Positions 16,043 to 39,925 of a DNA stretch of 64,000 nt are shown piece after piece. The notes below the pieces were generated by a model that saw only the letters and a list, made by a program, of their open reading frames with translations, was not told the DNA's origin and did no database searches. Made by a program: the position numbers and the translations under genes. Source of the DNA: Deltaproteobacteria bacterium (GTDB taxonomy: Bacteria; Desulfobacterota; Desulfuromonadia; Desulfuromonadales; Geopsychrobacteraceae); contig JAGYPB010000002.1 of the NCBI GenBank assembly GCA_018399135.1, positions 1 through 64,000 on the forward strand, written 5' to 3'. Each line of letters opens with the position of its first letter. Position 1 is the stretch's first letter.

Positions 16043-17158
16043 TTACTTCCCTGAAGAAAAATATTCCTGCAGAAAGTCGGACTTAAAGGCAGCAAAGTCT
16101 CCTGCCTCAATGGCCGTGCGAGCCTGTGCGACCATGTTCAGATAAAAACGCACATTATGAATGGCCGACAGAGTTGCCGACAAAATCTCATTAGCGTTAA
16201 ACAGGTGGTGCAGATAAGCACGACTGAAATTGGCGCAGCAATAGCAGTCACAGGAAGGATCGACGGGGAAGAAGTCGCGGCGGAAATTGCGATTGGTCAG
16301 GCGAATTTTGCCGCGTCGGGTAAAGAGAGTAGCGCTGCGAGCATAGCGGGTTGGAATAACGCAGTCGAACATATCCATCCCGCGTTCAATTGATTCGAGA
16401 ATATCCTCCGGCAGCCCGACTCCCATCAAATAGCGTGGCTTGTGTTGTGGCATATGAGGTTCGGTATCGTTAACAACTTTTTTCAGCAGTTCCAGCCCCT
16501 CGCCAACGCTGACACCGCCGATGGCGTAACCGGGGAAATCAAGAGTACTGAGTTGTTCTGCGCATTCACGCCGTAAATCCGGGAAGACGCTGCCTTGAAC
16601 AATCCCGAACAGGGCTTGATCATCCGGGCGCTGGTGGTGCTGAAGACAACTTTCGGCCCAACGCAGGGTTTTTTTGATCGATTTTGCAGAATAGTCATAA
16701 GTGGCAGGATAGGGAATACATTCATCAAAGGCCATCATGATATCGGATCCCAAATCATTCTGAATCTGCATGGCCTCTTTGGGCCCGAGAAAAATTTCAT
16801 CACCGGTTCCCTCGTGGCGAAAGTGTACACCTTCTTCACCAATCTTTTTATTGGGAAGAGAGAAAACCTGAAAGCCGCCACTGTCGGTAAGAATCGGTCG
16901 TTTCCAGTTCATAAACTGGTGTAGACCCCCGGCTTTTTTTATTAACGCTTCACCTGGTTTGAGATGGAGGTGATAGGTGTTGGAGAGAATAATCTGCGCC
17001 CCGGTTTCTTCTACCTGGGCCGGGGTCATGGCTTTAAGGGCACCATGGGTGCCCACCGGCATGAAAATCGGTGTTTCGATCGTGCCATGGGGGGTTTGAA
17101 GCCGTCCGCGGCGTGCACGGGTTTGCGGATCTTGCGCAAGCAAGGTAAAGTGAAACAT
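16043..17158 (-). CDS. tgt: tRNA-guanine transglycosylase family protein (paralog 1, divergent)
   Basis: [45 protein letters not shown]...[13 protein letters not shown]...MGVGLPEDILESIERGMDMFDCVIPTRYARSATLFTRRGKI...CDCYCCANFSRAYLHHL. Confidence 0.93.
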   Translation of the reverse strand: MFHFTLLAQDPQTRARRGRLQTPHGTIETPIFMPVGTHGALKAMTPAQVEETGAQIILSNTYHLHLKPGEALIKKAGGLHQFMNWKRPILTDSGGFQVFSLPNKKIGEEGVHFRHEGTGDEIFLGPKEAMQIQNDLGSDIMMAFDECIPYPATYDYSAKSIKKTLRWAESCLQHHQRPDDQALFGIVQGSVFPDLRRECAEQLSTLDFPGYAIGGVSVGEGLELLKKVVNDTEPHMPQHKPRYLMGVGLPEDILESIERGMDMFDCVIPTRYARSATLFTRRGKIRLTNRNFRRDFFPVDPSCDCYCCANFSRAYLHHLFNANEILSATLSAIHNVRFYLNMVAQARTAIEAGDFAAFKSDFLQEYFSSGK

Positions 17159-17249
17159 CTGTTATTTCTCCTGTTCAGGCAATATTGCCGATAAACGCGA
17201 CTGACGTATAACAAAATCCACGTCCGCATGCAATCATAACGGAGGTTCC

Positions 17250-18197
17250 ATGTCCCTGTCTGTCGCCCCTCCGTCCTGGCTGGAGCGTCTTGATTGCGCG
17301 CAGATAACCTTTGTGCTGTCTCTGGTGGAAGAAGTTGATTTGCCGCCACTGGCCCTGTTTCAACTGCGGCGTGAATTTTCCTCGGTCATAACAGAGTTAG
17401 AAAGGCAGTACGGAGCCGATGTCGCCAGCCTGGTTGGCAGCCTGCTGTTTCCACAACCGGCGATTGATCCGGTCGTGCAGCGTCAGGTGCAAAAGCCGTC
17501 CGCAGCAGTGATATTTTCTCCGGACGCTGTTACGACAGGGCGCTTTGCCTCGGGCCATCAATTCAAGCTTCCCGCACTTTTTATCGGAGATGGTGTCGTT
17601 GCAATCGAGGCCTTTAGCGTATTGCTGCAGTTGCTTGGTCAACGTGGAATATATAAAGGGCAGGGGAGATTTGATGTGTCTGCCGGTGAGATTGTCGTGA
17701 ATGATGGTCACTCGAATTCTCGAAACGATCTGGGAGGCAGTGTGACTCCCACTATTGTGCCTCTGTCCTGGTTGTTGGTGCAACAAGGCTCGTCCTTATC
17801 TCATGTAGAATTGGAAGTAGTTACTCCATTGCGTTTGATAAAAAAAGGGAAGCCTTTATTTAGATTTAATTTTAATGATTTTTTTTCAGCATTGCGACGA
17901 CGAGTTAATCATCTGGCCATCGCCCACGGTGAGACCGTTAATGATGACGATGATGACGAGCAGAGTGCGTTGGCTGCAACGATTGTGTGCGGCGTTGAGC
18001 ATCTGCATTGGTCGGATTGGCGACACCTTGAACAGGGTCGTAAAGGGCAGGGAATTGGTGGTCTAACGGGGACTTTAACTCTGAGGGGTGACGCTCTGGC
18101 TGACCTGTTGTGGCTGCTTGAATTGGGGGTTTTGCTGCATGTCGGCAAAGGGGCATCCTATGGTTTTGGTCGCTTTCACTTGTTGCAATGCTCGTAG
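17250..18197 (+). CDS. Cas6-like RAMP protein (CRISPR pre-crRNA endoribonuclease family, PF10040-like), orphan
   Basis: VELEVVTPLRLIKKGKPLFRFNFNDFFSALRRRVNHLAIAHGE...LHWSDWRHLEQGRKGQGIGGLTGTLTLRGDALADLLWLLELGVLLHVGKGASYGFGRFHLL: C-terminal RAMP fold with G-rich loop. Confidence 0.85.
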   Translation: MSLSVAPPSWLERLDCAQITFVLSLVEEVDLPPLALFQLRREFSSVITELERQYGADVASLVGSLLFPQPAIDPVVQRQVQKPSAAVIFSPDAVTTGRFASGHQFKLPALFIGDGVVAIEAFSVLLQLLGQRGIYKGQGRFDVSAGEIVVNDGHSNSRNDLGGSVTPTIVPLSWLLVQQGSSLSHVELEVVTPLRLIKKGKPLFRFNFNDFFSALRRRVNHLAIAHGETVNDDDDDEQSALAATIVCGVEHLHWSDWRHLEQGRKGQGIGGLTGTLTLRGDALADLLWLLELGVLLHVGKGASYGFGRFHLLQCS

Positions 18198-18262: not shown

Positions 18263-18658
18263 ATGTTCTGGTTTGTGCTGTTGCTGATTTTGTTGGGTTT
18301 GGGGTTTTATTTTTATCAACGAATGGTTGCTCTGGAGCAGGAAATTCGCGCCGATCAGGCACGAGAGAAAGAACAACAGCAAACAGACCAACGTAGCGAA
18401 GAGCCCGCGCCCTTTAAGGAAGCGTCAGCTCCACGAACGCCGGAATCTGCTGCCCCGGTTGAACCAGCTGCAGGGGTTGTGGAAAACCCCATTTTACGGC
18501 TTATCTGTTCGCAACCTGGTGTCGTTCAGTCCGCTGTCTATGCCGAGCTGCCCCAGCTGAACAAAAAACAGGCGCAACAGATGATCAGGGAGCTGGTTGA
18601 TGCGGGAAAGATCAAGCGCGAACGTCTGGGCCGTTCTTTCAAATTGTATCTGGTTTAA
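18263..18658 (+). CDS. Membrane-anchored protein with C-terminal winged-helix-like domain
   Basis: N-terminal TM FWFVLLLILLGLGFYFYQ, Pro/Ala/Glu linker, then NPILRLICSQPGVVQSAVYAELPQLNKKQAQQMIRELVDAGKIKRERLGRSFKLYLV. Confidence 0.65.
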   Translation: MFWFVLLLILLGLGFYFYQRMVALEQEIRADQAREKEQQQTDQRSEEPAPFKEASAPRTPESAAPVEPAAGVVENPILRLICSQPGVVQSAVYAELPQLNKKQAQQMIRELVDAGKIKRERLGRSFKLYLV

Positions 18659-18712: not shown

Positions 18713-20023
<1,311 letters not shown>

Positions 20024-39654: not shown

Positions 39655-39925
39655 TCAATCACCAGACTGGAAGCAATAGTAAAAGCGATGAAGAGGAGTA
39701 GTAGGCGTCGTATCCGTTCGTGAGAGCCGGTGGTGCTGAGAACCGGCACGGAAAAGCGCTGAACTCGCCTTGGAGCTGTGGAGATGAATGATCAGTAGTT
39801 TCCGCCGTGACCCTGCGTAAAGGGGTAAACAAGGTCTGTCAGGCTGTAACGACAGATGAATCAGGGTGGTACCGCGAAGCTTAAAGCTCTCGCCCCTGTA
39901 GGACATGGGGCGAGGGCTTTTTTTG
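39655..39925 (+). promoter_or_regulatory. T-box riboswitch leader of leuA, likely Leu (CUC) specifier
   Basis: Stem I-like gcgatgaagaggagtagtaggcg, gagagccggtggtgctgagaaccggc, specifier region GAA-CTC-GCCttggag, T-box AGGGTGGTACCGCG at 39863-39876, terminator CTCGCCCC...GGGGCGAG + T7. Confidence 0.93.
39889..39925 (+). terminator. T-box regulated terminator
   Basis: ctcgcccctgtaggacatggggcgagggcttttttt. Confidence 0.9.

Follow-up and report, generated by a model that had tools for sequence, protein, structure and literature searches.

The gene cas6L, an orphan member of the Cas6 family in the 64,000-nucleotide stretch of DNA analysed here (the window), probably derives from a type III Cas6 that was captured in the ancestor of its bacterial class and then exapted to bind a host transcript independently of CRISPR. 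In the scheme that we propose, a Cas6 from a type III CRISPR locus would have gained a permanent place in the chromosome no later than the class ancestor, and would then have been uncoupled from CRISPR to become a single-copy, vertically inherited housekeeping gene. Its product, Cas6L, would still hold a specific RNA in the cleft that separates its two RAMP folds, would no longer mature crRNA, and may serve a host transcript by binding it or in the manner of a chaperone. Exaptation is supported by full-length homology to Cas6, a single class-wide locus, purifying selection, independence of cas1 and the loss of CRISPR-linked motifs. A more specific version, in which a class-wide domesticated Cas6 binds or processes one particular cellular RNA, with a zinc-ribbon protein as a frequent partner and both genes lost in one family, is plausible and is put forward tentatively. 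The usual view of Cas6 is that of an enzyme devoted to CRISPR, and here its fold is a single-copy vertical gene in about nine of every ten genomes of the class, most of them without cas1 in the order tested. The gene and its surroundings in the window are as follows.

16043–17158, minus strand: tgt (queuine tRNA-ribosyltransferase), divergent and 91 bp from cas6L; within seven genes of it in 35 of 40 loci of the order
17241–17246, plus strand: ribosome-binding site CGGAGG ahead of the cas6L ATG, recognised by sequence, its GGAG core kept in three relatives of the genus
17250–18197, plus strand: cas6L, orphan protein of 315 aa with a predicted Cas6 fold (PF10040, PADLOC, AlphaFold2 model, Foldseek and class-wide distribution)
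18263–18658, plus strand: small protein of 131 aa with an N-terminal membrane segment and a winged-helix-like C terminus, present in 27 of 40 loci of the order
18713–20005, minus strand: eno (enolase), the edge of the conserved neighbourhood; within seven genes in 25 of 40 loci of the order

The cas6L open reading frame has an ATG start and a good ribosome-binding site (AACGGAGGTTCCATG) upstream. PF10040 matches residues 188–308 of the product with 49.1 bits (cut-off 25), and the PADLOC Cas6 model PDLC01477 spans residues 13–311 (E 3e-45). NCBIfam TIGR01877 scores 18.1 bits against a cut-off of 58.65, and one listed type III-linked relative is also low (25.6 bits). The AlphaFold2 model, built from 28 orthologues (pLDDT 85.5, pTM 0.85), predicts two tandem RAMP (ferredoxin-like) folds, an arrangement expected of the Cas6 family, and its best PDB matches by Foldseek are Cas6 proteins (the MMB-1 Cas6 domain, Thermus TTHB231 and Sulfolobus Cas6; E 7e-13 to 1e-9). 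Alignment of the orphans with type III-linked Cas6 by hhalign extends over 311 columns with E 8.6e-46. A phmmer search of the PDB with the single cas6L protein gave no Cas6 match, and a search with the cas6L profile gave weak matches to Cas6-RT-Cas1. The preliminary description of this DNA had read the gene as Cas6-like from a C-terminal pattern of the Cas6/PF10040 type. That pattern is indeed in the sequence, and the profile, PADLOC and structural matches bear the reading out.

The genome is a 2.86 Mb draft in 153 contigs, 84.9% complete, with the window on a contig of 103 kb. There is no CRISPR-like array in the window, and a second PF10040 gene, cas1, a type III RAMP and a Cas3 HD domain were all not found in this 84.9% complete genome. 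No CRISPR-Cas system was found to accompany cas6L in that part of the genome, and its description as an orphan stands. Had a CRISPR locus lacking its own cas6 been present elsewhere, the gene could be taken for a simple displaced cas6, and no such locus came to light in the 85% of the genome recovered. Relatives on viral contigs or plasmids were likewise not found (the viral search catches close relatives only), and there is thus no sign of a mobile carrier.

The neighbours are those first described, with tgt on one side and the small membrane protein and eno on the other, and the tgt–cas6L–eno arrangement, whose conservation had been suggested as a check, is indeed conserved. Its general form is tgt-(frdCAB)-cas6L-(zinc ribbon)-(ftsH)-eno. 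At least one of tgt, frdB, ftsH or eno lies no more than seven genes away in 39 of 40 loci of the order and 15 of 17 loci of other orders, as against none of 22 CRISPR-linked loci. In the other orders cas6L directly follows frdCAB in 11 of 17 loci and ftsH is within two genes downstream in nine of 17; the recurrence of tgt, frdCAB and ftsH within and beyond the order indicates that the site is orthologous. The 131-aa membrane protein is co-directional with cas6L, begins 65 bp downstream of it and adjoins eno in most of the order; against Pfam it gave sub-threshold winged-helix matches only, and no family above cut-off. A PF13453 zinc-ribbon gene (about 100 aa, co-directional and strongly conserved, with the motif CPKCG...CPGCGGVWLG; e.g. 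L035:8088-8408) directly follows cas6L in 35 of the 40 loci of the order. A strict pairing of the two genes was considered and is weakened by departures of two types. One is the absence of the zinc ribbon, with cas6L present, in family f11 and in the window's own genus, where the small membrane protein comes directly after cas6L. The other is its location elsewhere in several genomes of other orders. We note that one genome (G025) carries two orphan-type copies (C77:6914-7843 and L143:6979-7887), each with its own zinc-ribbon gene.

Within the order, orthologues of cas6L reach 117 of 136 genomes (75 of the 84 good ones) and 48 of 53 genera. In the class as a whole, profile searches found homologues in 251 of 277 genomes, a count that takes in a few CRISPR-linked copies (L123, L125 and L133), and in 173 of the 187 good ones, nearly always as one copy. 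Elsewhere in the phylum, outside the class, the homologues adjoin type III cas genes (cas1, cas10 and csm genes) or CRISPR arrays. In a maximum-likelihood analysis of 81 proteins, three groups are each confined to one side of a branch: the orphans of the order (support 100/100), those of other orders (100/97) and the CRISPR-linked proteins (100/99). With a root taken from shared synteny, in place of an outgroup, all of the orphans would form one clade. Distances between Cas6L proteins follow those between Tgt proteins (r=0.91 over 46 loci, Mantel p=0.0005; r=0.71 within the order), and dN/dS is 0.12–0.26 between close pairs with measurable dS, one pair with saturated dS having been excluded. 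Sequence comparisons of these kinds indicate that cas6L is inherited vertically and is under purifying selection, and the earlier suggestion that the gene is exapted is well supported by this selection together with the class-wide single-copy conservation and the synteny. That cas6L is a decaying relic without function is extremely improbable and is already contradicted: its sequence changes rapidly and motifs have been lost, but the dN/dS values are those given above, the gene is intact in almost every genome, and it has held a single locus since the class ancestor. Two features do stand against the favoured reading. The rate of change of Cas6L is about 3.3 times that of Tgt, which is high for a protein that binds RNA in a housekeeping role, and family f17 of the order manages without the gene.

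Comparison of the 59 orphans with the 22 CRISPR-linked relatives separates the parts of the protein that are kept from those that are lost. The glycine-rich loop near the C terminus, which is a signature of Cas6, and the arginine patch are the most conserved parts, and two of these segments can be located in the window.

17898–17903, plus strand: Arg217-Arg218 of cas6L (R218 in 59/59 orphans and 22/22 relatives; R217 in 59/59 and 19/22)
18144–18170, plus strand: glycine-rich loop G299-K-G-A-S-Y-G-F-G307 near the C terminus (G299, G305 and G307 in 59/59 orphans, K300 in 58/59)

Residues R218, P193, G271 and G274 and the loop GxGKxAxxGxG are common to the orphans and the CRISPR-linked relatives, and R195 and R217 are missing from just a few rows. 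YKGSxxRGxFG, a Cys4 finger and RYSxRQ vary little or not at all in the 22 relatives (the same holds for K35, G36, G41, G44, the four cysteines, R259, S261 and Q263), and all of them are gone from the orphans of the order; among the orphans of other orders the four cysteines are retained in some rows, YKGSxxRGxFG is lost and RYSxRQ is deleted. The cas6L of the window itself has none of these three type III segments. The invariance of these motifs, taken by itself, suggests that the orphans have lost crRNA processing, and their alteration suggests that Cas6L may now handle another cellular RNA. No conserved histidine is present in the orphans, and we dropped an argument from the loss of a catalytic histidine; it does not apply, since an invariant N-terminal histidine is missing from the CRISPR-linked relatives as well and Sulfolobus Cas6 is active in the absence of one (PMC3652601). 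From the fold and the conserved residues we infer that Cas6L binds RNA. No RNA ligand was found, and a search for conserved RNA structure on both flanks of cas6L, covering six clades and a mixed set, gave no convincing covariation; both results count against the RNA-binding reading.

How the protein is used can be read in several other ways. The preliminary description had proposed that cas6L might serve a distant CRISPR locus, and a role in processing crRNA in trans for loci without their own cas6 has some precedent, as type III loci often borrow Cas6 and most are thought to use one in trans (PMC12669027); in two genomes (G056 and G092) type III RAMPs are present and the orphan is the sole PF10040 protein. 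The distribution of the gene speaks against this. Orphan presence in the order is independent of cas1 (36 of 40 genomes with cas1 and 81 of 96 without; Fisher p=0.59), type III RAMPs occur in only seven of the 136 genomes, and the one-contig genomes G063 and G135 have cas6L with neither cas1 nor type III RAMPs. Moreover, the three genomes of the order with a CRISPR-linked copy (G044, G097 and G033) have it as an extra, separate Cas6 besides the orphan, at a type III locus or adjoining a cas10-like gene, three f17 genomes (G109, G112 and G113) have cas1 and no orphan, and the type III-specific motifs are lost in the orphan. Processing in trans is very improbable as a general role, though conceivable in G056 and G092. 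Among the loci compared, a CRISPR array is present at L141:13292 onwards, with 79 copies of a 23-mer, spaced as in an array, close to a type III-A locus, and an 892-aa open frame with a Cas6-like part, perhaps a fusion of the Cas6-RT-Cas1 type, starts at L173:5852 (G156).

Part of another early suggestion, that of an RNA endonuclease acting on cellular RNA, fares better: the Cas6 fold and the RNA-binding loop are kept, and the motifs invariant in CRISPR-linked relatives are gone, which makes cleavage by the orphans doubtful. An active endoribonuclease re-tuned to one cellular RNA would need an active site rebuilt from R40, R41, R195, R217, R218, R258 and K300. Among orphans of the order these basic positions are strongly conserved, and Sulfolobus Cas6 cleaves through a network of lysines and arginines without the canonical histidine (PMC3652601). 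However, that enzyme needs several basic residues together, and the residues invariant only in CRISPR-linked relatives (K35, R259, S261, R263 and the Q263 region) have gone, and we regard retained cleavage as unlikely, though it deserves some weight. It is also conceivable, and very improbable, that the RNA function has been lost and the fold kept as a protein-binding scaffold, for example as a partner of the zinc-ribbon protein. Consistent with this are the position of the zinc-ribbon gene directly after cas6L in most loci of the order and its appearance as a separate gene in the order, whose orphans have no internal Cys4 finger of the kind seen in the CRISPR-linked relatives. The two genes also share a fate in f17, the one family of the order from which cas6L is absent throughout. 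There the flanking genes tgt-ftsH-eno-phoH are in place, and in all seven loci examined (L183-L189) neither cas6L nor the zinc-ribbon gene lies between tgt and ftsH/eno, a natural double deletion. A scaffold does not readily explain why the glycine-rich loop and the arginine patch should be the most conserved parts, and the link to the zinc ribbon is not strict, given its absence in the own genus and in f11 and its separate location in some genomes of other orders.

We favour an RNA-binding protein acting on a host transcript, and several known systems bear on this reading. PF10040/DUF2276 Cas6 proteins of about 316 aa are encoded in type III loci adjoining csx16 and RAMP genes (PMC3936711). 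The orphans resemble these in full-length homology, length, the glycine-rich loop and the predicted two-RAMP fold, and differ in being chromosomal core genes that have lost motifs, whereas the type III-linked proteins lie in CRISPR loci and keep YKGSxxRGxFG, the Cys4 finger and RYSxRQ. The predicted fold is that of Sulfolobus Cas6 (Sso1437, PDB 3zfv; Foldseek E about 2e-9), and both this protein and the non-catalytic Pyrococcus Cas6 paralogue have no canonical catalytic histidine or show reduced catalysis (PMC3652601). Both come from CRISPR-using organisms and loci, unlike cas6L, which is kept without CRISPR. There is precedent for the proposed role in Cas6 proteins with very low rates, which may act like RNA chaperones (PMC3652601). 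Other cas-family genes outside CRISPR loci include solo-Cas4 (PMC5704561) and the cas1-solo and casposon genes (PMC9939771); these families are largely mobile or DNA nucleases, in contrast to the vertical, predicted RNA-binding fold of cas6L at one chromosomal site. A non-defence use of Cas6-processed RNA is described for CreTA and the ectopic-repeat systems, but these need a resident Cascade and a CRISPR Cas6, and cas6L needs no CRISPR system (PMC9458426). We found no published account of an orphan, solo or stand-alone Cas6 of this kind in the literature searched, outside which most subscription journals lie. If Cas6L does bind cellular RNA, it would show a CRISPR protein moving into housekeeping RNA biology. 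A ready test set exists in the CRISPR-linked proteins, the intermediate orphans with residual Cys4, the fully derived orphans and the family without the gene. Annotation pipelines that label cas6L as a CRISPR component are wrong for the whole class. The sole Rfam match in the window is a T-box leader RNA (RF00230, positions 39679–39900, plus strand, 119 bits), far from cas6L.
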